Positions 44,857 to 60,776 of a stretch of DNA of 64,000 nucleotides are shown in pieces (positions within the stretch are counted from its first letter, which is position 1; each line of letters opens with the position of its first letter). A model generated the notes under the pieces. The model made no database searches. It was not told where the DNA came from and saw only the letters and a list, made by a program, of their open reading frames with translations. The DNA is from Clostridium sp. 12(A) (GTDB lineage: Bacteria; Bacillota; Clostridia; Lachnospirales; Lachnospiraceae): contig JAGI01000002.1 in the NCBI GenBank assembly GCA_000526575.1, positions 930,001 through 994,000 on the forward strand, written 5' to 3'. The translations under genes were made by a program, and so were the position numbers.

Positions 44857-44894
44857 GAATTTTTCTCCTATACGATATAACGTTTTTCCCAGTG

Positions 44895-44933
44895 AAAATG
44901 AGGTCTAACTCTGAAAGAGCCAAACCTCATTTT
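44895..44933 (-). terminator. Terminator after ytaF
   Basis: AAAATGAGGT pairs with ACCTCATTTT around a 19-nt loop. Confidence 0.75.
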
Positions 44934-44940
44934 CTATCAT

Positions 44941-45561: not shown

Positions 45562-45623
45562 ACGCCATTGAACTTACCTTTTTTCTTTTAATATATTCAT
45601 CATGAAAGGTTTTGGAACCCTTA

Positions 45624-46196
45624 CTACTCAATCGTCTTAAACCCTGGGTAATACCGGACGAGTACTTTTGCCAGAATTTTATTCTCTGGTACATAAGGAT
45701 CCGGCCAATATCTGGCATCTGCTGAGTTATTCCTGTTATCCCCAAACATCAGATAGCAGCCCTTGGGCACTTCAAAATGAAAGTCTTTTGTCTCCATCGG
45801 TTCTGGCAGATATGGCTCTTTAAGAGGAGTCTCTGAGCCATTGATATATATTTTATTCTCCCGGACATCCACAGTCTCGCCAGGAAGTCCGATAATTCGT
45901 TTCACCAGACGCGTCTCCTGCGATCCAGGCCCAGTCTCATGATCGAATATGACGATATCACCCCTTTGAGGATCTTCTCCAAACTTATAGGCAAGCCGAG
46001 ATCCAAACAGGCGGTCTCCCGTCATAATCGTCCGCTCCATGGAGCCGCTGGGTACCCTGCTGTTGGCAATGATAAATGTATTCAGAAAAAATGCAATGGC
46101 AGAAGCCATCAGAATTATCTTGACCCAGTCAAAAATCTCTTTTTTCCAGTTTATCTTCCCTTTTTCCATGTCCTCTTGATTCTTCTCTTCATTCAT
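45624..46196 (-). CDS. lepB: Signal peptidase I
   Basis: Membrane-bound serine protease that cleaves secretory signal peptides. One membrane helix (IILMASAIAFFLNTFIIA) precedes the catalytic Ser in VPSGSMERT; the catalytic Lys is in RLVKRIIGLPGE, and the conserved box GDNRNNSADARYW is near the C-terminus. The ATG at 46196 (MNEEKNQED) is the likely start because the frame's earlier TTG at 46238 lies inside the -10 element. It is directly downstream of the sigK 3' end and terminator. Confidence 0.94.
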   Translation of the reverse strand: MNEEKNQEDMEKGKINWKKEIFDWVKIILMASAIAFFLNTFIIANSRVPSGSMERTIMTGDRLFGSRLAYKFGEDPQRGDIVIFDHETGPGSQETRLVKRIIGLPGETVDVRENKIYINGSETPLKEPYLPEPMETKDFHFEVPKGCYLMFGDNRNNSADARYWPDPYVPENKILAKVLVRYYPGFKTIE

Positions 46197-46228
46197 ACAA
46201 AGCTTGTCCTTTACTATTTTATTCCTAT

Positions 46229-46257
46229 ATTGTATCAAAATAAACCAATTGGTTCAA
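46229..46257 (-). promoter_or_regulatory. Promoter of lepB
   Basis: On the minus strand: -35 TTGAAC (46257-46252), 17-nt spacer, -10 TACAAT (46234-46229). Confidence 0.75.
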
Positions 46258-46261
46258 GCTT

Positions 46262-46291
46262 AAAAGCAGGGACTTGGAGTTGCCCCTGCTT
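46262..46291 (-). terminator. Terminator of sigK
   Basis: AAGCAGGG pairs with CCCTGCTT, followed on the minus strand by TTTAA. It lies 7 bp after the sigK stop codon, so the original sigK transcription unit ends here. Confidence 0.8.
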
Positions 46292-46297
46292 CATTCA

Positions 46298-46366
46298 CTA
46301 AATACTATACCTTTTCAATTCCGCCCGTAGCCGTTCCAATGCCTTTTTCTCTAGTCTGGATACATA
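46298..46366 (-). CDS. sigK: sigK fragment 3: codons 189-210 and stop
   Basis: Reads Y-VSRLEKKALERLRAELKR-YSI-stop. This is the second half of the sigma-70 region 4.2 helix-turn-helix (recognition helix) plus the C-terminus, which is exactly what the fragment at 54.6-54.9 kb lacks after GISRSY. The frame joins at the Tyr codon: TAT here, TAC there. No start codon or ribosome site belongs to it, so it is expressed only after excision of element 2. A terminator follows directly and lepB is downstream. At 22 codons it would escape normal gene calling. Confidence 0.93.
   Translation of the reverse strand, partial: YVSRLEKKALERLRAELKRYSI
46365..46366 (-). other. Attachment core (TA) of element 2, sigK 3' side
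   Basis: The TA of the Tyr189 codon (TAT). Half-site arms inside the element, read outward on the minus strand, are ACAG (46375-46372) and CCCTA (46385-46381). The recombinase stop codon at 46380-46382 lies within this half-site. Confidence 0.8.
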
Positions 46367-46379
46367 TTCGTCTGTTTCA

Positions 46380-47930
46380 TTAGGGACAAATAAATGGTTC
46401 CATAAATCTCCATCTAATAATAACAGTTCCATTCCTTTCTACGGTAATATTCTCTATCAATCCGTCAATCATTGCCCTGTTACACGTATCAAGTGGGAAA
46501 CAGCCGCTGAATTGCTCCTCCTCTTCCAACACCGGATTCTCCATAAGCGTTTGGTATTGATTTTGTAAAATGGTAACGGAATGTTCCAGTTCAATTAGCT
46601 TTTCCTGAAAAGTTAATTGGGAAAGCTTCTCCTTTTTGTAGGCTTCATAAAGAGAAAACTTTTTTCCTTCCAGTTTACTAAGCTTTTGTTGCAGGGTCTT
46701 AATTTCAGTCATGTGGTTTCTTGTAACAGGTTTTTTCCTTGTCTGCTCATTAAGAGGTTGACTGGTCATAAAAGCAAACTTCTGCAAGCTGCTCATAATC
46801 ACGTTCTTTAGCTGCTGTTCCTCAATTCTCCCCTGATAGCATGTGCTGTTATATAGATTTCTGCCCATTTTACAGCAATAGCCGATTTTATTGCCCTTTT
46901 CTATTTTGGTCAATGTATGACTGCATGCTTTGCATCTTATCTTTTTGGCAAATAAGCTTTCCGTTCCGATTCCTTTCTCTTTCTTTTTGTAATGTTTTAT
47001 CCTCTTTTCCGCGGCCTTATATTCCTCATGGGAAATGATTCCCTCATGGGCATCAGGAACAAGAATCCACTGTTCCTTAGGAACCTTAATCTCCTTTTTG
47101 CTTCCTACAGACTCTGGTCTGACTTTTCCATAAACAGCATCTCCCGTATACCTTTGATCTCCTAATATGTGAGATACGGTTCCTACTGTCCATAGAAAGG
47201 AATTACTGCTGACTGATCTGTTTAAAGGTTCCCTGCGTCTCTTTCTTATGGTCATGGGACTTGGTATCCCCTCCTCATTTAACCGTCTGGTAATTTCCGT
47301 CTTTGTTACACCTGATAAATACAGCGTAAAGATACGCCTTACAATGGGAGCACACTCTGGGTCTATGATAAGCCGGTTTCTATTCCCTTCCTCTTTTTTA
47401 TAACCGTATGGTGCAAAGGCTGTCACAAATTTTCCCTGTTCTGCTTTTGATTTTCGTACCGTTTTGATTTTTACGGAAAGATCCTTACTGTATGCCTCAT
47501 AAATAATATTTTTAAAGCCCACGTCCAGAGCGCCGGCAGCACCTGCGCTGTAAAAGCTGTCAAAACCATCGTTCACAGAGAAAAACCGAATTCCTAAAAA
47601 GGGGAAAATCTGTTCCAGATAGTTTCCCACCTCCAAATAATTCCGCCCAAACCTGGAAAAGTCTTTTACAATGATACAGCAGACTTCTTTCCTTTTTGCC
47701 ATCTCAAGCAAGGTCAAAACCGCTGGACGGTCAAAATTCGTTCCGCTGTATCCGTCATCCACAAACTCTATTACGTTATAATCTCTTAATTCTATCCGGT
47801 TCCTTATAAAATCCATAAGAAGCATTCTCTGTCCGGCTATGCTGTTGCTTTCCCCACCAGTTTCCAATTCTTCGTCCTCATCAGAAATACGCATATAAAT
47901 TGCTATGTTTTGCTGGCCGTCTATTTCCAC
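46380..47930 (-). CDS. Large serine recombinase A (element 2)
   Basis: About 516 residues: resolvase-type catalytic domain with nucleophile Ser in IYMRISDEDE, DDGYSGTNFDRPAV and DFSRFGRNYLEVGNYLE; then the recombinase domain, a zinc-ribbon-like CKACSHTL segment and a coiled coil (IKTLQQKLSKLEGKKFSLYE). The frame opens at TTG 47960, overlapping the end of gene B; a GTG near 47930 is the likely start. It is the last gene of the trio and ends within the element 2 attachment half-site, the position usual for the acting integrase gene. Confidence 0.92.
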   Translation of the reverse strand: MEIDGQQNIAIYMRISDEDEELETGGESNSIAGQRMLLMDFIRNRIELRDYNVIEFVDDGYSGTNFDRPAVLTLLEMAKRKEVCCIIVKDFSRFGRNYLEVGNYLEQIFPFLGIRFFSVNDGFDSFYSAGAAGALDVGFKNIIYEAYSKDLSVKIKTVRKSKAEQGKFVTAFAPYGYKKEEGNRNRLIIDPECAPIVRRIFTLYLSGVTKTEITRRLNEEGIPSPMTIRKRRREPLNRSVSSNSFLWTVGTVSHILGDQRYTGDAVYGKVRPESVGSKKEIKVPKEQWILVPDAHEGIISHEEYKAAEKRIKHYKKKEKGIGTESLFAKKIRCKACSHTLTKIEKGNKIGYCCKMGRNLYNSTCYQGRIEEQQLKNVIMSSLQKFAFMTSQPLNEQTRKKPVTRNHMTEIKTLQQKLSKLEGKKFSLYEAYKKEKLSQLTFQEKLIELEHSVTILQNQYQTLMENPVLEEEEQFSGCFPLDTCNRAMIDGLIENITVERNGTVIIRWRFMEPFICP

Positions 47931-47952
47931 CACCACCTTCCAGCTTTTTCCT

Positions 47953-49545
47953 TTAAGCAAGGGGCTGATCGTATTCGGAACAGAAGGTATAATGTATTTC
48001 CACCCAGTGTTGACATACTACAATTCTATCGATAAGATATTTCCACATATCTCTTGCTTCATCTGCCTTAATCCGTTCCGCCTCCTTTTGTTTCTCCTCT
48101 GCCTGTTGATTCTTTAGCCTTACCTTCTCTTTCTCAAGTATCTCTTTTTCTTCCTCCCATTTTCTTTGTATACTGACGTATTCCTCTTTGGATAACAGCC
48201 CTCGTTTATAATTCTGATACTGTTCCAATTCTTTGATATCTCTTCCCAGAAATGCTGCCTGGTTCTGTTCCAGCTTCCTGGTTGTATCAAATACTATATT
48301 AGACTGTTCATGGCACCCTGGGCTGACAAGAACGTTTAACTGCTTTGTGACAGATTCAGTCACCATAGACAAAAGATCTGCTTCCAATACACTTTCTGCC
48401 TCGCATCCCAGCTGTTTTAAATACTTTCTCCGGCAGATGAAGCGATGATGTATTAAGTTTCCATCCTGATTAAAATATCCGCTGTCCCGTATCATTTTCC
48501 CCTGACAACAACCACATACAATAAGGCCCTTTAAGGGATTTTCTGTTTCTTTCCGGTGGTTTCCTCCTATATTTTTTCTGCTTTGCCTTGATTCTTCCAA
48601 TAAAGCCTGGACTTTTGCAAACAATTCCCAATCAATAATAGGTTCATGGGTATTTTCAATATAATTCCATTGGTCTTTGGGAATCATTTGCTTTCTGCCG
48701 CCTTTGTAATAGGACTGCTCCGTTTTACGCTCCACCATACAGCCACAGTAAACGGGATTTTCAAGAATACTTACAATAGAAGAGCCAGACCAAAGTGCAT
48801 TGGCTTCACCGCTGGTCCCTTTTAATAATCCCATATGATAAAGTCTTCTTGTCTGGCATGGAATACCATTGTCATTTAACTTTCTGGCTATTTTTACAGC
48901 CCCCAGCCCACTCATTCTAAGGAAAAAAATTTCCCTCACCACAGAAGCTGTTTTTTCTTCTATCTCCAGCTGACGTGGATTCATGTCTGACTTTTTATAC
49001 CCGTAAGGAGCAAATCTCCCCAGGAACAGTCCCTTCTTTTTCTTCACATCAAGTAAGGTACAGACTTTTTTAGAAATGTCTTTTGCATAAATATGATGGT
49101 ACACATTTTTAAGGGAAAGGGAGAGCCCTTCGTTGGACGTTGCCTTCTGGCTGTCGTAAGAATCGTTCACAGATATAAAACGCACTCCTAAATAAGGGAA
49201 AATATTCTCCAGATAGTTCCCTGTCTCCATATAATTTCTTCCAAACCGGGACAGATCTTTCACAACCACGCAATTAATCTTACTGCTTTTGATATCATCA
49301 AGCATGGCATGAAACCCTGGCCTGTCAAAATTGGTTCCTGTCAATCCATTATCACAGTAAGTGGAAATAAGCTTTAGTTCTTTATGCTCCTTCACATATT
49401 TTTCTAGATAGTACACCTGATTTTCAATGGAATCACTGTCAATCCCATTGTCCTCTATGGAAAGGCGGGCATAAATGGCTGTTAAAAAGTTTTTTTCAAC
49501 GGTCTCTTTTAAAACCTCCTGATTGTTTCTATTTGTTCTGGCCAT
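47953..49545 (-). CDS. Large serine recombinase B (element 2)
   Basis: About 530 residues from the ATG at 49545 (MARTNRNNQE), which overlaps the 3' end of gene C. Catalytic motif IYARLSIEDNG with nucleophile Ser at about residue 29, then DNGLTGTNFDRPGF and KDLSRFGRNYMETGNYLE, recombinase domain, zinc ribbon CGCCQGKMIR and a long Glu/Lys-rich coiled coil (residues ~420-490). Clearly homologous to A and C but diverged, so not a recent duplication. No lesion is visible. Confidence 0.92.
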   Translation of the reverse strand: MARTNRNNQEVLKETVEKNFLTAIYARLSIEDNGIDSDSIENQVYYLEKYVKEHKELKLISTYCDNGLTGTNFDRPGFHAMLDDIKSSKINCVVVKDLSRFGRNYMETGNYLENIFPYLGVRFISVNDSYDSQKATSNEGLSLSLKNVYHHIYAKDISKKVCTLLDVKKKKGLFLGRFAPYGYKKSDMNPRQLEIEEKTASVVREIFFLRMSGLGAVKIARKLNDNGIPCQTRRLYHMGLLKGTSGEANALWSGSSIVSILENPVYCGCMVERKTEQSYYKGGRKQMIPKDQWNYIENTHEPIIDWELFAKVQALLEESRQSRKNIGGNHRKETENPLKGLIVCGCCQGKMIRDSGYFNQDGNLIHHRFICRRKYLKQLGCEAESVLEADLLSMVTESVTKQLNVLVSPGCHEQSNIVFDTTRKLEQNQAAFLGRDIKELEQYQNYKRGLLSKEEYVSIQRKWEEEKEILEKEKVRLKNQQAEEKQKEAERIKADEARDMWKYLIDRIVVCQHWVEIHYTFCSEYDQPLA

Positions 49546-51163
49546 CTCCTTCAACTCCCATGGGTACCGTAATTTCATTCCTAAAATTAAAAATAATCTG
49601 GATATAGTTCTTATTTGATACCACAATCTCTTTTACGAAAAAAAGAAGCAGAGAACGATTGATCTCTGTGATGTTCTTTATGTCTCTGAATTCTTCCAGC
49701 CATTGATTCTTGGAATTATTATTTTCTAAAAGTTCTTTTAAACCTTCTTCCAATACTCCTATGGTCTGGCAAATCTCGTCTATGATTGTTTCATAGACGG
49801 ATTTCATACTATTATAATTTTCCCTGTTTAAAATCTCTTTTTTATAATCATCATATAACCCCATAATCAGGTTCTGGTAATACTCATACTCTTCTCGTTT
49901 CTTTTCCAATCGCTTACAATACTTTGTAACCTCATTATCTTTCCCTGGAAGGGTATCCATATAGGTAAGGATGTCGTCTGCCTTACTGAAGATATTAATT
50001 TCCTGCCTTATGACCTCCTGAACACAGGCCTTAAGTCGAAGCTCACCAATCCTGTTTGCGTTGCTGCATCTTGTTTTATCTATTTTGTTTGTTCTGCATA
50101 TATAATAGATGTATGTCTTACCACCAGATTTCACTGGTCTTCGTATCATGCTTTTTCCACATTCCCCACATACTAAAATGCCGGAAAAAAGATATAGTTC
50201 TTTTTGCTCCGGGGCTGTTCTGGTATCTGTAGAAATGATTCGTCTGACAAGGAAAAAGTCTTCTTTTGTAATAATTCCGTCATGGGTGTTTTCCACAATT
50301 GCCCATTCTGATCTTGTTTTTTTGAATTTCTTTTTCACCTTATAATTAGGGGAGCTTTCCTTTCCCTGAACCATGGTGCCCGTATATATCTCATTTTCCA
50401 AAATACGGCTTACGGCCTGGGCTGACCATTTGGCTACGGGCTTAAGCTTAAAGGATGTACTGAATGCCCAGCCAAGCATCCGCTTATATTCCAGAGGTGA
50501 TAATATTCCTGCCGCATTTAAACGCTCTGCAATCTTCTGGTTGCTATACCCCTTAATTTTCCATTTAAAAATATCACGCACTGTCATTGCTGCAAACTCA
50601 TCAATTACCAGCTTATGTTTATCCTTCTTCGAACGGACGTATCCATAAACTGGAAAAGCGCCGATATATTCGCCCCGGGAATATCTGACTTTTATCTGGC
50701 TCCTTACTTTTACGGAAATGTCACGGCTATAGGCATCGTTCATTAGATTTTTGAAAGGAATTATAATTCCATCCGTTTGACTTTGTGATATTTTGCTGTC
50801 AAATCCGTCATTGATGGCTATGAATCTGACCCCTAAAAAAGGAAAGACCTGTTCTATGTATCTTCCTGTTTCTATATAATTTCTGCCGAAGCGGGATAAA
50901 TCCTTTACAATGACACAATCAATGATTCCTGCCTTTATGTCTTCAAATAACGCTTTGATCGCAGGCCGTTCAAAGGATACCCCACTATAACCATCATCGA
51001 TGCGTTCCGAGCATACCACTATTTCTGGTTTCGTTTTTAAAAATGAAAGAATCAACTCCCGTTGATTTCCAACACTATTGCTTTCCTGTTTATCTCCATC
51101 TTCTTTGGATAACCGGATATATATAGCGCCGTGATATATTCTGTTTTCCTGAATTGATTCCAC
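49529..51163 (-). CDS. Large serine recombinase C (element 2)
   Basis: 544 residues from a GTG at 51163 with AGGAGG 7 nt upstream. Catalytic motif IYIRLSKEDGD (Ser19), DDGYSGVSFERPAI and KDLSRFGRNYIETGRYIE, recombinase domain, zinc ribbon CGECGKSMIRR, coiled coil (LEKKREEYEYYQNLI). First gene of the three-gene overlapping run C-B-A, so all three are probably translated from one mRNA in similar amounts. Confidence 0.93.
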   Translation of the reverse strand: MESIQENRIYHGAIYIRLSKEDGDKQESNSVGNQRELILSFLKTKPEIVVCSERIDDGYSGVSFERPAIKALFEDIKAGIIDCVIVKDLSRFGRNYIETGRYIEQVFPFLGVRFIAINDGFDSKISQSQTDGIIIPFKNLMNDAYSRDISVKVRSQIKVRYSRGEYIGAFPVYGYVRSKKDKHKLVIDEFAAMTVRDIFKWKIKGYSNQKIAERLNAAGILSPLEYKRMLGWAFSTSFKLKPVAKWSAQAVSRILENEIYTGTMVQGKESSPNYKVKKKFKKTRSEWAIVENTHDGIITKEDFFLVRRIISTDTRTAPEQKELYLFSGILVCGECGKSMIRRPVKSGGKTYIYYICRTNKIDKTRCSNANRIGELRLKACVQEVIRQEINIFSKADDILTYMDTLPGKDNEVTKYCKRLEKKREEYEYYQNLIMGLYDDYKKEILNRENYNSMKSVYETIIDEICQTIGVLEEGLKELLENNNSKNQWLEEFRDIKNITEINRSLLLFFVKEIVVSNKNYIQIIFNFRNEITVPMGVEGDGQNK

Positions 51164-51298
51164 AAAAAAACCTCCTAAGCATTCACTGTATCAGCAAAAA
51201 CCCAGGCGGTTCCATATTATCCCTATGTATTTTATATCATATAATCTCATAACACGCACCTGTGTAAAACCTTGTTTTTGCTTTTTCATTCCAATCCT

Positions 51299-51544
51299 TT
51301 ACCTGCTTTCTATCCGAAAGTATTGTTTTAGTCTCTCATCCAATGTAACCTCTGTCTCTGAAAAAACAGAATGAATTACCATATCTCCATAACGGAATAA
51401 GTATGGATTTTTAATCTGTTTTAAAAAGCTTTGGATTCGTTCTTCCTTTGGCAGATTCGTATCAATTTGAACTGAACTGATGTCAACAAGATCTTCTTTA
51501 CGAAACTCTGAATCATTTGGTATTTCTTTGCTGGGCAATTCCAT
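51299..51544 (-). CDS. Small ORF upstream of the recombinase trio
   Basis: About 81 residues (start ATG 51544 behind GAGAGG; the frame opens at 51556). Acidic/basic mixed protein with VDISSVQIDTNLPKEERI and IKNPYLFRYGDMVIHSVFSE; no membrane segment. I recall similar short ORFs beside recombinases in Lachnospiraceae mobile elements but cannot name a family with certainty. Being in the same orientation, 135 bp before the trio, makes it a candidate accessory or directionality factor. Confidence 0.6.
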   Translation of the reverse strand: MELPSKEIPNDSEFRKEDLVDISSVQIDTNLPKEERIQSFLKQIKNPYLFRYGDMVIHSVFSETEVTLDERLKQYFRIESR

Positions 51545-51627
51545 TCTTCCTCTCATCTCAGTTACAGTTTCAATGTATGCAGTTCCCGGATTGTCCTATG
51601 CTATCACAAGCTCCTTGTACACAAGAA

Positions 51628-51649
51628 AGAGTCTGACTTATCAGACTCT
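51628..51649. repeat. Perfect 9-bp inverted repeat upstream of the small ORF
   Basis: AGAGTCTGA (51628-51636) and TCAGACTCT (51641-51649) with a 4-nt loop. Read on the minus strand it is followed by TTTCTTG, so it may be a weak attenuator or a regulator-binding site. A smaller GTCACT/AGTGAC hairpin lies just beyond. Confidence 0.5.
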
Positions 51650-51731
51650 GGTGCTGACGCGCCGTCACTTTAGTGACATCTTCCTCTTAAGCGTCATGTG
51701 CATCCTGCAGGGAGTGCTCTTTCCTATATAA

Positions 51732-51783
51732 TAAAAAAGCTGTATATTCTCCCGTCGCTTTAAAGACGAAAGGAATATACAGC
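51732..51783 (-). terminator. Terminator after the propeller protein gene
   Basis: GCTGTATATTC (51739-51749) pairs with GAATATACAGC (51773-51783); on the minus strand TTTTTTATTATA follows. Confidence 0.85.
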
Positions 51784-51792
51784 AGATTCAAC

Positions 51793-53580
51793 TTATTTAT
51801 CAGACCGTGTCCAGACACCTTTTCCGCTGGTTCCGGCTAATACATTATTATCTCCGATTAAAATAGAATAAACATCTATGGACTCCAGACCGGCATTGAA
51901 ATCACTCCAGTTTTTCCCTTCATCAAAAGAATGATACATACCGCCACCATAAGTGCCTGCAAGAACAGCTGATTTACTGACAGCAAGGGCATTGATATTT
52001 CCACTGGTTAAACCTGAATTGACCGGCTTCCAGCTGTCTCCTTTGTTTGTAGATAGAAATACACCATCCCCCGGTGTAGCTGCCAGAATAAAGGACTCAT
52101 TGCCGGTCAGTGAAAAGATCTGGGCATTGGTGATTCCACTGTTAACCTCCTCCCAGTTTTCTCCATTGTCAAATGACCGGAACACTCCGCTGCCAAAAGT
52201 GCCGGCATAAAGTTCCTTGCCGCTCACCGCAAGAGAGCTAATATAATAATTGGTGATATCCTGGTTAACACTTTCCCAGCTGTTTCCATTATCACTGGAA
52301 CGGAATATGCCGCCTCCAAAGGTACCAGCAAAGATATCATTGCCATTGATTGCAATAGAATAGACAAACTTATTGGTAAGCCCGGAATTCATCTCATTCC
52401 AGGTTTTTCCCTGATCTGTGGATAAAAAGATTCCACCGCCGTTTGTGCCTGCGAAAATACCTGTATCATTAATCGCAAGAGAAAAAACAAAGGGATTAGT
52501 TAATCCTGCTCCGGCTTCCTTCCAGTTCAGTCCCCCATCCTGAGAAACGAAGACACCTGCGCCGCTGGTGCCGGCATAAACTTCCTTGTTATGAGAGGCA
52601 AAAGAACTGATATGAGTGTTCATCAATCCTTCATTGATTTTATTCCAGCTTTCCCCATCATCAAGAGAGACAAATACTCCTCCTCCGTTGGTTCCGGCAT
52701 AAATACAGGAATCATCTGCAATCAAAGTATATACATAATGATTGGTCAGACCATTATTAACCGCCTTCCAGCCAGTGCCGTCAAAAAGAAATATCCCTTC
52801 CTCTGTTCCTGCAAAAACATTGGTTTCCTTTATGGATAAGGAATTGACATTTTTACTGGTCTCTCCCATGTCTAAGGACTGCCAGCTCTCTCCATTGTTA
52901 TCAGACATAAATATACCTCCTCCAAGAGTACCGGCATAGATTGCAGAATTGCTTGCTGCAAGAGAAGTGACTTGCAGATTGGTCAGGCCATTATTGACCT
53001 GTATCCAATGATCGCCTTGATCAGAAGACCGGTAGATACCGCCTTCCTCTGTTCCTGCAAATAAGTCTGTACCACTTACGACTATTGAATTTACATTGCT
53101 TGAAGTTAAACCCTCGTTCATCTCTTTCCAGTTTATGCCATGATCTGCAGAATATAGAATGCCTTTGCTGGTTCCTGCATAGAGCTTCTCATCTGTTCCT
53201 GCAATGGAATAGACCATAACATCCTGAAACTTAGAATCTACACTTTGCCAGCGTATCTCATCCATTGGTGAGGAATAGATGCCCGCGCTGGTTCCTGCAA
53301 ATATCATTGTCCCGCTAATGGCCAGGGAATATACATGATCGCTGTCTAAGCCATCATTCGCAGCTTTCCAGCCAGCCCCCTCATTGGTGGAGACAAAGAC
53401 ACCGCTTCCCTGCGTTCCCGCAAAAACCTTTTCCTTCTCAGCTGCCATGCATAAGATATATCCTCCATATGGACCATTGGCCTGCTCCCATGTCCTCGAT
53501 GCTTCTTTCCTGAAATATACAAAAGATACAGCAATCAGCAGAAAAAGAAGCAATAAAGGCAGCCAAAGCTTTTTCTTCAT
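51793..53580 (-). CDS. Exported Asp-box (BNR/YCF48-like) beta-propeller protein
   Basis: About 595 residues. The ATG at 53580 has AAGGGG 5 nt before it and starts an N-terminal membrane anchor or signal (KKKLWLPLLLLFLLIAVSFVYF). Some thirteen repeats of about 43 residues follow, most with an Asp box S-x-D-x-G-x-x-W (STNEGAGW, SADHGINW, SSDQGDHW, SSDNGNSW, SFDNGENW) and a FAGT-GGG-F strand. Such repeats build a beta-propeller, as in sialidases and YCF48/HCF136. No sialidase catalytic FRIP motif or arginine triad is apparent, so binding or scaffolding is more likely than hydrolysis. Cargo of element 2. Confidence 0.82.
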   Translation of the reverse strand: MKKKLWLPLLLLFLLIAVSFVYFRKEASRTWEQANGPYGGYILCMAAEKEKVFAGTQGSGVFVSTNEGAGWKAANDGLDSDHVYSLAISGTMIFAGTSAGIYSSPMDEIRWQSVDSKFQDVMVYSIAGTDEKLYAGTSKGILYSADHGINWKEMNEGLTSSNVNSIVVSGTDLFAGTEEGGIYRSSDQGDHWIQVNNGLTNLQVTSLAASNSAIYAGTLGGGIFMSDNNGESWQSLDMGETSKNVNSLSIKETNVFAGTEEGIFLFDGTGWKAVNNGLTNHYVYTLIADDSCIYAGTNGGGVFVSLDDGESWNKINEGLMNTHISSFASHNKEVYAGTSGAGVFVSQDGGLNWKEAGAGLTNPFVFSLAINDTGIFAGTNGGGIFLSTDQGKTWNEMNSGLTNKFVYSIAINGNDIFAGTFGGGIFRSSDNGNSWESVNQDITNYYISSLAVSGKELYAGTFGSGVFRSFDNGENWEEVNSGITNAQIFSLTGNESFILAATPGDGVFLSTNKGDSWKPVNSGLTSGNINALAVSKSAVLAGTYGGGMYHSFDEGKNWSDFNAGLESIDVYSILIGDNNVLAGTSGKGVWTRSDK

Positions 53581-53661
53581 ATTTACCCCTTTTTTCATGT
53601 AGTGAATAAAAACGCTGCCCAAGAAAACAGGCAGCGTGTATAAGTTATGTACAATCCTAGC

Positions 53662-54336
53662 TTAATACTGCGCAAAACCGAAGCCACGATTTTTTAAATT
53701 ATTAACGATTGTCGGAAGTGCCTGAAGTGTCGTCTGATAGGCATCATGCATCAGAGGATTTCCGCCAGCCCTTAAATTATTACAGGAGTTGATAATTGTC
53801 TGTGTACTCGCGCCTTCCCAGTCGCTTGTATAGACAGTCGGAGTAACAATGGATAAGCCTAATGCGGAACATGCCTGAGTGATGGTATTATTGTTGTAAA
53901 GATAGGGTAATCTCACCTTGGTTGGCCTTGGCTTACCAGCGTTTTGAATGGCCTGGTTGCATTTCTGGAAATCGTTATAAACCTGCTGATAGCTCCAGCT
54001 GCTCATCTGAGAATGGGTCCAGCTGTGATTTTGAAGGCTGAAGCCTGAGTTTACATAGGCATTCCATGCAGCCTGATTGCCGGCAATTTTGTTGCCCCAG
54101 ACAAATAATGTTGCCTGGTAGCATCCAGCATTCTTAAGATTGGATATTAAAGTTTGTGAAGTTGCATTATTCGGGCCGTCATCAAAGGTAAGGTATACAT
54201 TCCCGGCATAAGCTGCCGCTTTCACATCAGCTATGTTTGCTGATGTCGTCTCCTGGGCATAAACGTTGGTAAACTTTAATAACCCTACGGTCAGTACCAA
54301 TGCAGATGCCAATAGAAATCTTACGTTTCGTTTCAT
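53662..54336 (-). CDS. CE4 polysaccharide deacetylase (NodB domain)
   Basis: 224 residues with a signal peptide (MKRNVRFLLASALVLTVGLL ... NVYAQ). NodB motifs: motif 1 TFDDGP (catalytic base and metal Asp), motif 2 HSWTHS (two metal-binding His), motif 3 RLPY, motif 4 TSDWEG, motif 5 LMHDA (catalytic His). Exported metal-dependent deacetylase for N-acetylated glycans or acetylxylan. The variant motifs (RLPY, SDW) resemble secreted acetylxylan esterases more than spore PdaA (inference). Cargo of element 2, first gene inside it; AAGGGGG precedes the ATG. Confidence 0.9.
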   Translation of the reverse strand: MKRNVRFLLASALVLTVGLLKFTNVYAQETTSANIADVKAAAYAGNVYLTFDDGPNNATSQTLISNLKNAGCYQATLFVWGNKIAGNQAAWNAYVNSGFSLQNHSWTHSQMSSWSYQQVYNDFQKCNQAIQNAGKPRPTKVRLPYLYNNNTITQACSALGLSIVTPTVYTSDWEGASTQTIINSCNNLRAGGNPLMHDAYQTTLQALPTIVNNLKNRGFGFAQY

Positions 54337-54643
54337 ACTAAATCCCCCTTATTAGTTGGACAACGCTAGATATCACACCTGAGCGAATCTAACTAGTTTA
54401 AGTCTAATGCATATAAATCTCCCCTCAAAATATCTGATATGTAACATCATCACAGTTAATTGGTAAATATTTACACATTCATATTAACATGTACAAAATT
54501 ATTATGCAAGTTTTTTCTGTTTTCCTTAAATAATCAGAGGATTTATCCTTTGTTTTTACAAAATAATACAAATTATTCTCTTTTTATTTGATTCTATTGC
54601 CAAATAATTATTATTAATTTTTATCCCTATTATGACAGCGGAG
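54337..54643. other. AT-rich end of element 2, no gene
   Basis: About 300 bp between the deacetylase gene and the sigK middle fragment. It presumably contains the deacetylase promoter and the inner attachment half-site. The sigK frame runs on into it as 28 meaningless codons (to 54556). No other structure is seen. Confidence 0.6.
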
Positions 54644-54645
54644 TA
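54644..54645 (-). other. Attachment core (TA) of element 2, sigK middle side
   Basis: The TA of the Tyr189 codon (TAC). Half-site arms inside the element, read on the minus strand, are CTGT (54638-54635) and TAGGG (54629-54625), mirroring ACAG and CCCTA at the other end with the same spacing from TA. Confidence 0.8.
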
Positions 54646-54945
54646 AGATCGGGATATTCCCATGAGATCAGCAATTTCTCTCTGGGTATACTCCTTTCCT
54701 CCGTGAAGCCCATACCGCATGCCAATGATTGTTTTTTCATTGTCTTTTAAACAACTGTCAAAAGCCTGATACAATTCCTTGATATCCTGCTTTAAAATAA
54801 TGGTTTCCAGTGTCTCTTTATTTTCCACTTCAATCACATCTACAAGACTTACAGTCTCTCCATCCTTGTCTACGCCTATGGGTTCATACAAAGAAACCTC
54901 TTTTGAATATTTTTTATTCGCACGAAGGAGCATAAGGATTTCATT
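54645..54945 (-). CDS. sigK: sigK fragment 2: codons 89-189
   Basis: Encodes NEILMLLRANKKYSKEVSLY, then EPIGVDKDGETVSLVDV, region 3 and the first half of region 4.2 (YTQREIADLMGISRSY). This is the middle of sigma-K. Upstream it joins fragment 1 at Asn89. Downstream the homology stops exactly at Tyr189 and the frame runs into element 2 sequence until a stop at 54556. The in-frame ATG at 54933 is internal (Met93), without a convincing ribosome site. Neither alone nor with fragment 1 would it have a recognition helix. Confidence 0.95.
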
Positions 54946-56611
54946 TGCTAGACTCTCCTGACGGCTCTTCTGACCCTATAAAATATAAATGTATGTTTTT
55001 TCCATCCCACACGGCTCTCTTTATAAATGCCCGGACTGCCATTCGCTTCTGCTCCACATCCATGGTGTCCAGAGTGTTTGAAAAGGAAGATAATGTTTTT
55101 TTAACAAGCTCTGCCTCCCCGTCGGAAAGCTCCTGGTTGATTAAGGATACCTTAAGCCTTTCTAAATGGCTGCTTATTTCCTCTTTCCTCTGATGAAGCT
55201 CTTCAATCTGGGCAACTATATATTCTTCTGCCGCTGTCCCTCCTGCTTTTTTCAAAGAGGCAACAAGACCGGAAATTTCTTCATCCAAATGAAGAATTTC
55301 CTTATTCAGACGCAATATATCTGCTTCTGATTCCTGACGGCCCTCGTCAAGAAGTTTTTCATATTGATTTAACTGTAGTGCCAATTCCTCCTTATTCTCA
55401 GCTATCTTTTTAATTTCCTCTAATACCATCTGATCAAGAAGATTTCCGTTTGGATTGTTCATGCCGCAGCATTTCATTCGGCTTCTTTCCTTCATGGTAC
55501 ACAAATAGGAATAAATTTGTTCTCCCTCCTGATTGAAACGGCCGGATAGCTTTGGCCTCATATAATCTCCGCATTCACTGCAGTATAAAAGGCCGGACAT
55601 CAGGGCCACATTGCTCCTTGGTTTTCTATAATTTTTAGATTTATTCCGGTCAAGCTGCTTTTGAACCTTGACCCACATGGCCCCAGGAATAAGGCCTTCA
55701 TGCTTTCCAACGGCGACAATCCATTCATCCATCTCTCTCATCTCATGAGCTTTTCCAGGCTTTTGAAGGGTACGATTGTATGCTATAACACCAAATTGGC
55801 CATTAAATTCTTCCTTTTCCGTAAATAAATCCACCTTTTTTTTCTTCAGATAATCATAGGCCTCCATATCAGCTGTCATATAAACAGGATTCCTAAGAAT
55901 TGCCTTAATGGCAAAGCGGCTGAACAGCCGGTTATATTTGGTCTTATATCCATTTTGAATCAGATACGTTTCCGTTTGTGTTAGAGATCCTGTTTCCATA
56001 AACGTTTCATATATCAGGCGAACAAGCTTGGCTTCCTCAGGAACGAGCCTTAACTGATATGCTTTTTTAACCTTCCCCTCTTCCGTAAGGGTTTTAACAC
56101 TTTGAGACTTATAACCAGTCGGAGTCGTTCCGCCCAGCCACCTTCCGCTTTTTGACAGTTCATGCATGTTATCCCGGATCCTCTCTGCAATAGTCTCTCT
56201 CTCCAGCTGGGAGAATACAGAGGCTATATACATCATGGCCCTTCCCATTGGGGAAGAGGTGTCAAACTGTTCCTTGATTGAAATAAAGGAAATATGCATC
56301 TCATTCAATTCCTCAATCAGATTTGCGAAATCGCCAATATTACGGCTGATTCTATCAAGACGATAACAGACAATTGCAGTAAATCGTTTCTTTTTTGCCT
56401 CCTGCATCATCTTTTTAAACTGAGGCCGGTCCAGGTTTCCTCCAGAAAAACCTTCATCTTCATAAACATAGGCATTTTCCCCATAGCTTTCTCCATAATG
56501 GCTGCACAGATACTGCCTGCATAATTCAATCTGATTCCCGATACTCTCCCCTTTTCCGGTGAATTTTGATTTTCTTGAATATATTGCAAATTGATCTTTC
56601 ACTTTTTCCAT
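54941..56611 (-). CDS. SpoIVCA-like large serine recombinase (element 1)
   Basis: 556 residues: catalytic domain with YSRKS (nucleophile Ser15), DEGFSGGNLDRPQF and YRLDRISRNIGDFANLIEEL; recombinase domain; zinc ribbon CSECGDYMRPKL; coiled coil (LRLNKEILHLDEEISGLVAS). This fits the sigK rearrangement recombinase SpoIVCA in size and plan. Its stop codon lies inside the element 1 attachment repeat, so the gene ends at the element boundary. AAGGGG precedes the ATG. Its likely role is excising element 1 in the mother cell. Confidence 0.92.
   Translation of the reverse strand: MEKVKDQFAIYSRKSKFTGKGESIGNQIELCRQYLCSHYGESYGENAYVYEDEGFSGGNLDRPQFKKMMQEAKKKRFTAIVCYRLDRISRNIGDFANLIEELNEMHISFISIKEQFDTSSPMGRAMMYIASVFSQLERETIAERIRDNMHELSKSGRWLGGTTPTGYKSQSVKTLTEEGKVKKAYQLRLVPEEAKLVRLIYETFMETGSLTQTETYLIQNGYKTKYNRLFSRFAIKAILRNPVYMTADMEAYDYLKKKKVDLFTEKEEFNGQFGVIAYNRTLQKPGKAHEMREMDEWIVAVGKHEGLIPGAMWVKVQKQLDRNKSKNYRKPRSNVALMSGLLYCSECGDYMRPKLSGRFNQEGEQIYSYLCTMKERSRMKCCGMNNPNGNLLDQMVLEEIKKIAENKEELALQLNQYEKLLDEGRQESEADILRLNKEILHLDEEISGLVASLKKAGGTAAEEYIVAQIEELHQRKEEISSHLERLKVSLINQELSDGEAELVKKTLSSFSNTLDTMDVEQKRMAVRAFIKRAVWDGKNIHLYFIGSEEPSGESSK
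54944..54945 (-). other. Attachment core (AA) of element 1, sigK middle side
   Basis: Core AA within the shared AAATGA (54946-54941), the first two bases of the Asn89 codon. Outer arm GAGCCGT at 54967-54961, 15 nt from the core. The recombinase stop codon TGA (54943-54941) overlaps the core repeat. Confidence 0.85.
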
Positions 56612-56720
56612 TCATTTCACCCCTTAACAAAATACTCTGCATTCCATAATCCACTCCAGGCACATACCGGACACGCAGAACCTCATACAATATATAGACT
56701 ATCGTTCCGGAAGACTTATT

Positions 56721-56894
56721 ATGAATATCATCGTTTATCGTCCTGAGACAGAAGAAGACCAAAAGGATCTGGAAAAAAAAGCAGCCATGGTTCACAGCCA
56801 GGCTGTCTTACAGTGCTTAAAACAGCTTTCTTGTCCAATTTATCAGAAACAAGCTATATGGAAGGAAATTAATCCTGATACAAATAAAGGATAA
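56721..56894 (+). CDS. 57-residue ORF divergent from the element 1 recombinase
   Basis: Starts MNIIVYRPETEEDQKDLEKK, then a helix-rich, charged protein with VHSQAVLQCLKQLSCPIYQK. No membrane segment. It is followed 7 bp later by a strong inverted repeat. It is the only plus-strand gene in either element and faces away from the recombinase. In C. difficile the skin element encodes a small recombination directionality factor needed for excision; this ORF is a candidate counterpart by size and position, not by verified homology. Confidence 0.6.
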   Translation: MNIIVYRPETEEDQKDLEKKAAMVHSQAVLQCLKQLSCPIYQKQAIWKEINPDTNKG

Positions 56895-56901
56895 GCAAAA
56901 G

Positions 56902-56937
56902 CCTATCATACCCAGGTTCTTAAAAGGGTATGATAGG
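56902..56937. terminator. Bidirectional terminator in element 1
   Basis: Perfect 12-bp inverted repeat CCTATCATACCC / GGGTATGATAGG with a 12-nt loop, between the plus-strand small ORF and the minus-strand cytochrome-b5-like gene; CTTTTG follows on the minus strand. Confidence 0.75.
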
Positions 56938-56956
56938 ATGGCATTTTCATATCTTA

Positions 56957-57544
56957 TCAGCTCATTTGAGGTGTCACAAGAGTGCCTACAATCGGGAGCA
57001 CGCTTAATACCATGGCTCCTGGATGACACATCTGAAACTCACTGGTCAAATTTCTCCCTGCTGTAAGTCCAAAAAAGTGGCTCCCTCCTGCCCATAAAGG
57101 ATTGTCAGTAACATTATATACCACTCCGTTTACCGCTACATAAGCAGGCTGACCATCTTTTCCGTTGTATTGTGCCAGTTCTTCCAAAGTAAATTCCCGG
57201 GTACCTTCCTCTGGTTCCGTGCCATTTTCAGATTCCTCTCCGTTCTGCGGCTGAGTCCCATTAGGGGATTGGGTGCCATTTGGGGGCTGGGTCCCATTCT
57301 GGGGCTGACTTCCTTCCTGGGGCTGACTTCCCCCCTGAGGCTGAGTTCCGTTGTTCTCCTCCTGATATACTGGCTGGATAAGCTGATTAAAATATTGAAT
57401 GTGGCTTTCCAGCATAACGATCTCACTGCTTAGAGTATCCAGTATATCTTCACGGTTAAACTGATCAGAACGCAGTTTCTCCACATCTGAATTGATTTTT
57501 CTCAAACCTTTGCCTACAAAATCTAGTACCAGTTCCATTTCCAT
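56957..57544 (-). CDS. Cytochrome-b5-like heme-binding domain protein with repeat linker
   Basis: 195 residues: an N-terminal helical region (~1-60), a low-complexity linker (~63-110) of six-residue repeats such as GTQPQN, GSQPQE and GTQPPN, then a cytochrome b5-like domain (~115-190) with FTLEELAQYNGKDGQPAYVA, VNGVVYNVTDNPLW and candidate heme ligands in GSHFFGLTAG and CHPGAM. No signal peptide. GGAGG lies 7 nt before the ATG. Similar single-domain proteins occur in Clostridia with unknown function. Cargo of element 1. Confidence 0.75.
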   Translation of the reverse strand: MEMELVLDFVGKGLRKINSDVEKLRSDQFNREDILDTLSSEIVMLESHIQYFNQLIQPVYQEENNGTQPQGGSQPQEGSQPQNGTQPPNGTQSPNGTQPQNGEESENGTEPEEGTREFTLEELAQYNGKDGQPAYVAVNGVVYNVTDNPLWAGGSHFFGLTAGRNLTSEFQMCHPGAMVLSVLPIVGTLVTPQMS

Positions 57545-57684
57545 ATGAACACCTCCATAAAAATTATACAGGATTATAACTATATGTACCGTTTATTGCT
57601 TGACCAAGTGGGGAATTTTAAGCATTGCTTGATTCAATATATGTGGTAAGTACAAATTTAACCCCCTATTTTTATGTTTTCTCA

Positions 57685-57723
57685 ATAAAAAATCATCCTC
57701 TTACAGGAAGTAAAAGGATGATT
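57685..57723 (-). terminator. Terminator after the GH27 gene
   Basis: AATCATCCT (57691-57699) pairs with AGGATGATT (57715-57723); on the minus strand TTTTTATTG follows. Confidence 0.85.
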
Positions 57724-57728
57724 CTAAA

Positions 57729-59018
57729 TTATGGATTATATTGGTAGATGGCAGCTCCATGTCCGGGCAGAGTAACGGACATATCTTTTTCTTTTAAAGA
57801 TTTACTCTTACCCGTCCATAGCTCTGTAAGGGTAAGATCGCAGAAGCTTGAAAAGCCTGCCATATCTGCTTCTATTAAGATGGGGCGTTCTACATTGGAA
57901 AGATTAAAGACAGCAAGGTATTGTGTCCCATCTGTTTTATCATGACTCAGCCAGAGACAATGATGGTCATCTCTCCATAACTGCCTGGCACCTTCTGAAT
58001 CAGTTAAAAGCTTTAAGACCGCCTTATTCGTCAACAGCTTAAGGGTCCAGTCATCAAGGAGCGTCAATTCTCCACCAATCATAAGCGGTGACCGGAACAT
58101 GCACCAAAGCGACATCATGGTAATCTGTTCTTCTCTGGTAAATCTCGTAGGCCGTTCCTGACCAAATCCTTTGCCGATCATTCCAACAGGCAGCATGTCG
58201 CAATCTGGATAATTTCCTTCGCTCACATGGTTCTGCCAGATTTCACAGCGCTCAAACATGGGAAGAAGGTATTTCCAGTCATCCCAAAAATCATCGGTAA
58301 TACGCCACATGTTTGCATAGGTACTGTAATGCCATGATTCATGAATCAGTGCAGGACCTGGAGAAAGGCTTAGCACCATAGGGCGGCCGCACTTTTTGAT
58401 GGCCTTATGAAGCATTACTATTTCCTGCTTTGCTGACGGGACATCCATTCGGCAAATATCGTCACATTTTATAAAGTCCACGCCCCAGCTGGCATAAAGT
58501 TCTATGATGGAGTCGTAATATTCCTGAGCCCCTTCTACGCCAGGTATCACACCATACATATCAGGATTCCAGGAACACACAGACCCGGGATCCGCTATTT
58601 CATTGGCCGTCTTATCCGTTCCCATAAGCTTTCCATGGGTATGTGCAGCAATTCTTGGAATTCCACGCATGATATGAATGCCAAATTTAAGTCCCAGCTC
58701 ATGGATATAGTGAGCCAGAGGGGCGAACCCCTTTCCCCCGGCTGATGATGGAAAACGCTCTGAGCAGGGAATCAGTCTGGAATATTCATCTATTTCCACT
58801 TTCCCAAAGGGTATGTACTGGTACTTGTCCCTCCTGGTTCCTGCCCCGTAAGCATACCACTGAATATCCACTACAATGTATTCCCACCCAAAATCCTTTA
58901 AATGTGCTGCCATATAGTCTGCATTGGCCTTGATCTGATCCTCATTTACGGTCGTATCATAATAATCGTAGCTGTTCCAACCCATGGGAGGAGTCTGTAA
59001 CATGATCTGATTTTTCAT
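57729..59018 (-). CDS. GH27 alpha-galactosidase-like glycoside hydrolase
   Basis: About 429 residues: (beta/alpha)8 barrel of family GH27/clan D with TPPMGWNSYDYYDT, WGVDFIKCDDICRMD (probable nucleophile Asp), WRITDDFWDDW (probable acid/base Asp), then a small beta domain. No signal peptide, so intracellular. Probably hydrolyses terminal alpha-galactosides; related clan members act on beta-L-arabinopyranosides. The ATG at 59018 has AAAGGGG 5 nt upstream; the frame opens at 59036. It is cargo of element 1, transcribed like sigK, and galT is elsewhere in the window. Confidence 0.88.
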   Translation of the reverse strand: MKNQIMLQTPPMGWNSYDYYDTTVNEDQIKANADYMAAHLKDFGWEYIVVDIQWYAYGAGTRRDKYQYIPFGKVEIDEYSRLIPCSERFPSSAGGKGFAPLAHYIHELGLKFGIHIMRGIPRIAAHTHGKLMGTDKTANEIADPGSVCSWNPDMYGVIPGVEGAQEYYDSIIELYASWGVDFIKCDDICRMDVPSAKQEIVMLHKAIKKCGRPMVLSLSPGPALIHESWHYSTYANMWRITDDFWDDWKYLLPMFERCEIWQNHVSEGNYPDCDMLPVGMIGKGFGQERPTRFTREEQITMMSLWCMFRSPLMIGGELTLLDDWTLKLLTNKAVLKLLTDSEGARQLWRDDHHCLWLSHDKTDGTQYLAVFNLSNVERPILIEADMAGFSSFCDLTLTELWTGKSKSLKEKDMSVTLPGHGAAIYQYNP

Positions 59019-59143
59019 ATAATCCCCTTTCTCCATACATTACATAATCATAATTCCATTATAACAAGCATGTTAAGCCTTGCAAGTATAATCGGTAAAA
59101 ACTGGAAATTTCTATGCCTGTGAGCCGTTATGATAGGATATCA

Positions 59144-59145
59144 TT
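59144..59145 (-). other. Attachment core (AA) of element 1, sigK 5' side
   Basis: Core AA within the shared AAATGA (59146-59141), in the Asn89 codon. Outer arm ACGGCTC (59128-59122) lies 15 nt from the core and is the exact inverse of the arm at the other end. Confidence 0.85.
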
Positions 59146-59409
59146 TTCCACACATTTGGCTGCATAGGTAGCCAGCCTTGAGCCTCTATCCGGATGGAAG
59201 GTGTTCACGGCTTTAATCAGACCGATCGTTCCTACGGATAGGAGATCTTCCATGTCGTAATCCGTATTCTGATATTTTTTCGCCACATGGGCAACCAGAC
59301 GCATGTTTCGCTCAATGAGTGTGGCTCTCGCCTCCTGATCCCCTTCCTGGTATCGTTCCAGACACTCTCGTTCCTCTCGTGCAGTTAAAGGTTTGGGAAA
59401 AGTTTTCAA
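59144..59409 (-). CDS. sigK: sigK fragment 1: codons 1-89
   Basis: N-terminal part of mother-cell sigma factor sigma-K: FPKPLTAREERECLERY, LIERNMRLVAHVAKKYQ and YDMEDLLSVGTIGLIKAVNT are sigma-70 region 2.1-2.2, and GSRLATYAAKCVEN is region 2.3-2.4, where homology stops. The frame then reads D-I-L-S-stop (59128) from element 1. The start is a TTG at 59409 with AAGGTGG 6 nt before it; a stop lies eight codons upstream. The product therefore has no pro-sequence, unlike B. subtilis pro-sigma-K but like C. difficile. Full reconstituted length is 210 residues. Confidence 0.95.
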
Positions 59410-59521
59410 AGAAAGCCACCTTAAACTTACTTACTCTCATTTTATGCTGCCCTTTCCATGAAAGTGCTTTTACAATAAATATTGGCTGGTACTTCTTTTT
59501 CCTCATAATCAAGGAAAGATC

Positions 59522-59577
59522 AAAAAAATCGGGCAAGAGAACTCTATGGTCTGCCTGAGTCTCTGTCCGATTTTTTT
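59522..59577 (-). terminator. Terminator after the AICAR transformylase gene
   Basis: AAAAAAATCGG ... CCGATTTTTTT with imperfect inner pairing (CAGAG/CTCTTG), immediately downstream of the stop codon and upstream of sigK. Confidence 0.75.
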
Positions 59578-59583
59578 AATATT

Positions 59584-60762
59584 CTAATGATGAAACAGGC
59601 GGATTTTGGTAAATGCCATTGCCATTCCATATTTGTTGCATGTTTCAATTACCTGATCATCCCGAACGGAACCGCCAGGCTGGGCCACATACTTGACCCC
59701 GCTTTTATAAGCCCGGTCTATGTTGTCCCCAAATGGGAAAAATGCATCTGAGCCTAACGAAACCCCGGAAAGCTGATCCAGCCAGGCCCTTTTTTCCTCA
59801 GAGGAAAATACAGGAGGCTTCACTTTAAAAATACTTTCCCATCTTCCGTCAGCCAGGACATCCATATATTCCTCACCAATATAAATATCAATGGCATTGT
59901 CTCTGTCTGCCCGGCGGATCTCATCCACAAATGGCAGCTCTAATACCTGGGGTGCCTGTCGCAGAAACCAGTTATCAGCCTTGCTTCCTGCCAGTCTGGT
60001 ACAATGGACTCTTGACTGCTGCCCTGCCCCAATTCCAATGGCCTGTCCCCCTTTTGCATAGCAAACGGAGTTTGACTGGGTGTATTTTAAGGTTATGAGA
60101 GAGATAATAAGATCCATTTTCCCGGAATCCGGAATCTCCTGATTCTTAGTAACAACGTCCTTTAACAGCTCTCCATCTATTTTCAGTTCATTTCTTCCCT
60201 GCTCAAACACAACTCCATACACCTGTTTCGTTTCAAGAGGCTCTGGCACATAATCAGGATCGATCTGAATTACGTTATAATTACCATTCTTTTTGGCCTT
60301 TAAAATTTCCAATGCCTCAGGCTCAAATCCAGGGGCAATAACACCATCGGATACTTCCCGCTTAATGATTTTGGCAGTATCCACATCACAAATATCAGAT
60401 AAGGAAATAAAATCCCCAAAGGCAGACATACGGTCAGCACCTCTTGCTCTTGCATAGGCACAGGCCAATGGAGATAAGTCCTTCATATCTTCCACCCAGT
60501 AGATTTTTGATAATACATCATTAAGAGGAAGACCTACCGCAGCTCCAGCGGGAGAAACATGCTTAAAGGAAGCTGCTGCCGGAAGTCCGGTGGCCTCTTT
60601 CAATTCTTTTACCAATTGCCAGCCATTAAAAGCATCCAGGAAATTAATATATCCGGGGCGGCCGCTCAAAACTTGAATCGGCAGTTCTTTCCCATCCTGC
60701 ATAAATATACGGGATGGTTTCTGATTCGGGTTACAACCATATTTTAATTCCAGCTCGTTCAT
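59584..60762 (-). CDS. purH: AICAR transformylase (stand-alone PurH transformylase domain)
   Basis: 392 residues matching only the C-terminal AICAR formyltransferase domain of bifunctional PurH: ELELKYGCNPNQKPSR, SFKHVSPAGAAVGLPL (counterpart of the catalytic KHxNPCG motif), RARGADRMSAFGDFISL and RVHCTRLAGSKADNWFLRQ. It transfers a formyl group from 10-formyl-THF to AICAR. The missing IMP cyclohydrolase step is supplied by the PurO-like gene 14 bp upstream in the same operon. Confidence 0.92.
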   Translation of the reverse strand: MNELELKYGCNPNQKPSRIFMQDGKELPIQVLSGRPGYINFLDAFNGWQLVKELKEATGLPAAASFKHVSPAGAAVGLPLNDVLSKIYWVEDMKDLSPLACAYARARGADRMSAFGDFISLSDICDVDTAKIIKREVSDGVIAPGFEPEALEILKAKKNGNYNVIQIDPDYVPEPLETKQVYGVVFEQGRNELKIDGELLKDVVTKNQEIPDSGKMDLIISLITLKYTQSNSVCYAKGGQAIGIGAGQQSRVHCTRLAGSKADNWFLRQAPQVLELPFVDEIRRADRDNAIDIYIGEEYMDVLADGRWESIFKVKPPVFSSEEKRAWLDQLSGVSLGSDAFFPFGDNIDRAYKSGVKYVAQPGGSVRDDQVIETCNKYGMAMAFTKIRLFHH

Positions 60763-60776
60763 CCTTTGCGCTCCTG

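Follow-up and report, generated by a model that had tools for sequence, protein, structure and literature searches.

In the organism deposited as Clostridium sp. 12(A), two site-specific elements of unrelated origin interrupt the sporulation sigma factor gene sigK, and we consider it highly probable that the gene is rebuilt by two separate excisions in the mother cell. The gene lies in a stretch of 64,000 nucleotides (contig JAGI01000002.1, positions 930,001 to 994,000; hereafter the window), where it consists of three pieces that lie on the minus strand, in order, and join in frame. An earlier note on this DNA had described these pieces, and their order, strand, frame and coordinates were all reproduced by translation of the sequence. 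Piece 1 (59143..59409) runs from a TTG start codon through 88 residues to the shared Asn89 codon and is 98-100% identical in most relatives. Piece 2 (54644..54945), delimited by translation and homologue search, reads NEILMLL...GISRS followed by two bases of the Tyr189 codon; the extent given earlier, Asn89 to Tyr189, was correct, while the break sits within the Tyr189 codon and not after it. The break is marked by a TA core at 54645-54644 and again at 46366-46365, where piece 3 (46298..46366; translation and alignment) supplies 22 codons and the stop, YVSRLEKKALERLRAELKRYSI-stop. A hairpin with a T run (46289-46262) follows piece 3, and then the gene labelled lepB. Chance does not account for the split, since some relatives have pieces 1 and 2 continuous and others have pieces 2 and 3 continuous; these comparisons support it well, and the mechanism proposed below is what we infer from them.

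Alignment to solved sigma factors mapped the second break to the segment that we take to be the recognition helix of region 4.2. Since this is where region 4.2 reads promoters, a protein made of pieces 1 and 2, without the second half of the helix, should be nonfunctional as sigma-K. It could be argued that these two pieces, extended by an element-encoded tail (SAVIIGIK...), already form a working sigma-K, so that only element 1 must leave, and the first tail residues are indeed identical in all carriers seen. However, conservation of the attP arm alone would yield a shared tail, the break falls within the recognition helix, and piece 3 is under selection (see below), which makes this explanation very improbable. 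An intact second sigK, a possibility that the earlier note had raised against its own reading, was not found in the 4.6-Mb, three-contig, 99.98%-complete genome by the TIGR02846 profile or by a search with piece 2. The best full-length TIGR02846 match scored 245.8 bits against a cut-off of 298.65; it neighbours a further sigma gene, and we assign it to sigE. At E<=1e-25 the search with piece 2 gave a single match. None of the control genomes exceeded the TIGR02846 cut-off, B. subtilis included; sigK of B. subtilis is also split.

Our comparisons place the window organism as a species of Lacrimispora (Lachnospiraceae), because L. algidixylanolytica SPL73 and [Clostridium] aerotolerans DSM 5434 are among the genomes of its genus and a tree of the upstream purH-like gene puts it beside L. 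aerotolerans (97.7% protein identity). Piece 2 was matched in 22 of the 25 genus genomes, and for 19 of these loci a 20-kb stretch was fetched; the genomes lacking a match were [Clostridium] aerotolerans DSM 5434 (G001, with piece 2 outside the contigs examined), G010 (67% complete) and G016 (90% complete). Pieces 2 and 3 are continuous in 16 of the 19 fetched loci, where the 3' end is uninterrupted. The relatives thus continue sigK past the break and do not end it as piece 2 ends, the other outcome that the earlier note had considered.

Element 1, between pieces 1 and 2, is 4.2 kb long, with the core AATGA and one serine recombinase. Its left core (attL1, 59141..59145, minus strand) and its right core (attR1, 54941..54945, minus strand), where piece 2 starts, were both located by end reading; the stop codon of the large serine recombinase (54941..56611, minus strand; Pfam) lies within the right core. 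A recombinase match adjoins piece 2 in all 19 fetched loci (in G024 as two blocks). Both ends were readable in the window and in 18 of the 19 loci, the exception being G015, whose contig starts inside the element, and in 19 of 19 readable cases they are imperfect inverted repeats of each other, placed around AATGA or a version of it with one base changed; the size ranges from 2.65 to 11.5 kb. Of 11 stretches fetched from other genera in which the 3' frame is short, 10 are broken at the A-A-N-G-A position (the eleventh, partly N, was left out), and the element 1 site is therefore the familiar skin site. With an AATGA site in sigK and a serine recombinase beside the 3' part, element 1 is by its sequence features a skin element. 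The other genes recognised by Pfam encode a cytochrome-b5-domain protein (56957..57544, minus strand), with a match in all 19 fetched loci, and a melibiase-like cargo protein (57729..59036, minus strand), with a match in 10 of the 19. Neither these nor the recombinase is a phage gene, small open reading frames (ORFs) being outside the scan; in our view, phage genes need not be present in every skin-like element. The nearest phage relative of the recombinase belongs to a Terrisporobacter phage (39.2% identity); AATGA occurs about 150 bases past that phage integrase, and no sigK attachment site was recognised near it.

Element 2, between pieces 2 and 3, is 8.28 kb long and carries, all on the minus strand, two cargo genes, a gene for a DUF6870 protein and three consecutive serine recombinase genes (Pfam). 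Its TA cores (attL2, 54644..54645; attR2, 46365..46366) were set by end reading and by alignment of empty and occupied sites; G014 (empty) and G015 (occupied) gave two blastn blocks, at 93.8% and 96.1% identity, that abut with a 2-bp overlap. The sequence of the attP arms beside attL2 (54613..54643) and attR2 (46367..46395) and the imperfect dyad that they form (17-20 of 29 positions) are conserved across all six lineages in which both arms were readable. The genes are those of a polysaccharide deacetylase (53662..54336; PdaB-like, below cut-off), a BNR/Asp-box repeat protein (51793..53622), the DUF6870 protein (PF21757; 51299..51556; Pfam and alignment), and recombinases C (49529..51163), B (47953..49626) and A (46380..47960), assigned by Pfam and tree. 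Element 2 is not of the skin type: its TA core lies at another codon, and its recombinases separate from that of element 1 in the tree. The independence of the two intervening elements, proposed in the earlier note, is borne out by their cores, their recombinases and their distributions, all of which differ.

No conjugation or mobilisation gene appeared among the Pfam matches of the six element 2 genes in the window (in G422 and G423, whose elements are larger, the scan covered a part). The nearest plasmid-borne recombinases belong to mobile elements, with TndX at 33.6% identity and recombinase C covering 92% of the match, and a scan of viral contigs with the element 2 circle gave 0 matches. 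The DUF6870 protein, of 85 residues, is the sole copy in the window genome, and the family was not mentioned in the literature searched. A structure model from six sequences reached modest confidence (mean predicted local distance difference test score 70.7, predicted template modelling score 0.49) and was not used.

A pattern scan recovered the element 2 end in six stretches of named genomes, L. algidixylanolytica SPL73 (G002) and DSM 5434 among them. Within the genus its carriers are the window species (two genomes), L. algidixylanolytica, L. aerotolerans and the metagenome-assembled genome (MAG) SIG286 (G015). The latter is deposited as Paenibacillaceae bacterium SIG286 (L057, SVDS01000039.1); its sigK locus is of the Lacrimispora type and 94-96% identical to that of G014, and it is probably mislabelled. 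Element 1 without element 2 was found in 16 fetched genus loci. Outside the genus, the element 2 junction was found in three genomes, Iy174_bin59, C65_88_CS_BP and MGG03618, with pieces 1 and 2 continuous in each. In Iy174_bin59 and C65_88_CS_BP the elements (16.1 and 22.7 kb) hold DUF6870 and recombinases C, B and A, ordered as in the window though not all side by side, together with other genes; MGG03618 showed no recombinase match within the 11.7 kb before its contig ends.

In a family survey of 250 genomes, one per genus, 165 matched pieces 2 and 3 and 85 had no match; many of these matches, near 50% identity, may be sigE. Among the matches listed as starting at piece 2, only that of the window genome stops at the break. 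The element-end pattern occurred in 3 of 397 family genomes, two of which belong to the window species. Given these surveys and the outside genomes in which pieces 1 and 2 are continuous, the double interruption is, among the genomes compared, known only in Lacrimispora. The possibility that an assembly artefact, or splicing at the RNA level in place of DNA excision, accounts for the arrangement is scarcely credible, and nothing was found in its favour: the same structure in the second genome of the window species and in two other Lacrimispora genomes, L. algidixylanolytica included, rules out the former, and the lack of any Rfam match at gathering score in 44000-61500 rules out an intron or RNA splicing.

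The window genome groups with G023, L. aerotolerans and L. algidixylanolytica in a single clade (0.998), throughout which element 2 has persisted. For the three clade members included, the trees of recombinases A, B and C all branch as the hosts do, so that element 2 was probably present in the ancestor of this clade. Outside it the recombinase and host trees disagree, and the nearest relatives of G015 are without element 2, which together point to a separate gain in G015.

Piece 3 has no start codon of its own, yet the window and L. algidixylanolytica sequences differ at 14 of 66 bases and at only 2 of 22 residues, a number of changes as low as none of 20000 random draws gave; the orphan piece is under purifying selection. 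This bears directly on the view that element 2 destroyed sigK, leaving its carriers asporogenous or blocked late in sporulation and piece 3 a relic. Such a loss would agree with the lack of any observed excised junction in the window genome and with the shortening of two of the three recombinases in G015. However, purifying selection acts on piece 3 in the very clade that would have inherited element 2, the attP arms are retained in six of six lineages while the remainder diverges, and SPL73, which carries both elements, belongs to a species whose description is titled as that of a spore-forming organism (title as cited in PMC11806200). Taken together, we regard the loss of sigK as improbable.

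Assembly footprints offered a further sign of excision. In the draft of DSM 5434, a contig of 8,176 bp runs from the left-end TA to the right-end TA of element 2, and its final 95 bases recur at the start of the contig that carries piece 3. Because the assembly graph breaks in this manner at the element ends, these appear to have a second neighbour, as they would if the element also existed as a circle or as a second copy. Among the contigs examined, those of 3 kb and above, none besides these carries an element 2 end, which favours a circle. For element 1, three contigs of G007 meet exactly at AATGA, and G017 shows the same at one end.

Several observations weigh against excision as we propose it. 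The DSM 5434 contig overlap gives no rejoined pieces 2 and 3. Both element 1 junctions are unbroken within one contig in 18 of the 19 fetched loci, as is the left junction in G016, and the element 2 junctions are unbroken in G023, G002 and G015. The comparison of piece 3 between the window and L. aerotolerans is a weak test, with five bases and one residue differing (P 0.048). In G015 (L033 11213-13449), recombinases B (326 residues) and A (419 residues) are shortened, with part of their length missing, and the element 1 recombinase of G024 (L040 5114-6782) falls into two overlapping match blocks, possibly through a frameshift or a sequencing error. The sigma-E promoters and the directionality roles discussed below are guesses at the level of motifs, and one of the small genes concerned was found in 14 of 20 loci only. 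Finally, excision in the window strain is inferred from comparison.

In C. difficile, the 72-residue directionality factor CD1234, under sigma-E and SpoIIID control, is described as confining skin excision to the mother cell (PMC5025042). Both elements of the window carry a small gene in a comparable setting. In element 2 the DUF6870 gene precedes the recombinases and lies behind a block, ATA-N17-CATA with GGACAATC (51572..51601, minus strand), that is conserved in six of six lineages. In element 1, an ATA-N17-CATA block on the other strand (56662..56691, plus strand) is present in 20 of 20 loci, the window included, and downstream of it a text search found an ORF of 57 residues (56721..56894, plus strand) in 14 of the 20. 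GGACAATC fits the SpoIIID consensus of B. subtilis, and SpoIIID is encoded in the window genome. A spacing of 16-18 is reported as classical in C. difficile (PMC3789822). Since the two strands of the window together hold 12 occurrences of ATA-N17-CATA with a following T, it is the conservation of the blocks and not the match that carries weight; a composite pattern of the element 1 promoter gave two matches in the genome against one in the reversed control, and thus no genome-wide signature. Because the small genes of the two elements stand behind sigma-E-like promoters that resemble each other, a single signal may trigger both elements, and such parallel triggering is at least as likely as two-lock control.

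The same evidence bears on whether element 2 behaves as a common mobile element, excised now and then in cells of any kind, under no developmental control, with sporulation relying on chance element-free cells. The DSM 5434 footprint derives from a genome-project culture, the nearest plasmid-borne recombinases, of the TndX type, are those of mobile elements, and the cargo varies by lineage, all of which this explanation would accommodate. It accords poorly with the sigma-E-like block held in six of six lineages before the DUF6870 and recombinase genes, and with the retention of element 2 throughout one clade, and we consider it unlikely. Element 2 may nonetheless be merely a mobile element for which sigK is a harmless address.

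Under the preferred reading, that of two mother-cell excisions, the recombinase of element 1 and its small candidate directionality protein would join pieces 1 and 2 at AATGA, and one or more of the element 2 recombinases together with the DUF6870 protein would join pieces 2 and 3 at TA. Recombinase C would be the first guess for the latter reaction, being the least degraded in G015; as it is whole there (535 residues) while B and A are shortened, C alone may suffice. Element 2 would represent a separate family that attaches to sigK at the codons of its recognition helix, and both excisions would start in the mother cell once sigma-E is active, through the sigma-E-like promoters. The earlier claim that sigma-K needs two excisions stands as the best reading of the locus.

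A stronger form of this proposal, which we put forward tentatively as possible but doubtful, is a two-step gate in which both unrelated recombination systems must fire in the same mother cell, with element 2 as the first recognised member of a sigK-specific, phage-free, triple-recombinase family and DUF6870 as a new family of directionality factors. If so, the timing of sigma-K would be set by the slower recombination system or by the order of the two, and the element 2 family would carry its cargo through dividing cells and leave at no cost in a doomed mother cell. Two-lock control of sigma-K is an attractive idea, and it touches the old question of whether skin elements have a regulatory role in sporulation or simply shelter in a gene for which dividing cells have no use. 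Here, sets with element 1 only, with both elements and with element 2 only occur in one gene, and one and two excisions become directly comparable. Element 2 represents a second, independent entry into sigK, at the DNA-recognition helix, and the two elements offer two small candidate directionality proteins, one of them in an uncharacterised Pfam family (DUF6870).

Compared with the skin elements as described for B. subtilis, C. difficile (skinCd) and the sigK prophages of C. tetani and C. perfringens, element 1 is alike in its AATGA site, its inverted-repeat ends, the serine recombinase bordering the 3' half of sigK and a small gene with a sigma-E-like promoter, as for CD1234. It differs from the skin prophages in being short and in having no phage gene among its listed window genes, and this sigK differs from the skin cases in holding a second element, which enters at a different codon, has a different core and encodes three recombinases. 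In its described features element 2 resembles gin in gerE of Bacillus cereus ATCC10987, reported as a 28.6-kb element with three serine recombinases, no phage genes and a 9-bp core, in which GirX (42 residues) is needed for excision and GirC lies apart from the GirAB pair (PMC5595907). Both have three serine recombinases and no phage genes and occupy a late mother-cell gene, while the gene, size, core and recombinase arrangement differ. Alicyclobacillus phage MMB025 likewise lies in sigK at a core other than AATGA (TCTC), but it is a full infectious phage, with one interruption reported (PMC13141910). With mobile elements of the TndX type, element 2 shares a related recombinase, but there is no conjugation gene among its window genes. 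Several elements in one gene are already known from the cyanobacterial nif elements, excised in the differentiating cell: nifD of Rivularia is reported to have four, and 10 of 87 interrupted genes have several (PMC4874684). Lacrimispora sigK is like these in holding several elements, while phylum, genes and cell type differ. No report of a sigK with two elements was found in the literature searched, preprints and most subscription papers being beyond its reach, which agrees with the earlier note.

Further features of element 2 were noted. A 105-bp repeat at 51627-51731, between the BNR and DUF6870 genes, resembles a small insertion sequence; the genome holds 11 copies of it, full or partial, and it is absent at the same place in the L. 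aerotolerans element. The sigK-proximal gene of element 2 is carbohydrate-active both in Iy174_bin59, where it encodes a GH10 xylanase (L059 1459-3027), and in Lacrimispora, where it is the polysaccharide deacetylase gene (53662-54336). A block upstream of the deacetylase gene (54410-54560) is conserved in the four Lacrimispora carriers aligned and looks like a vegetative promoter (TTGCAT-N17-TAATAT), and because of this resemblance the element 2 cargo may be expressed in growing cells.

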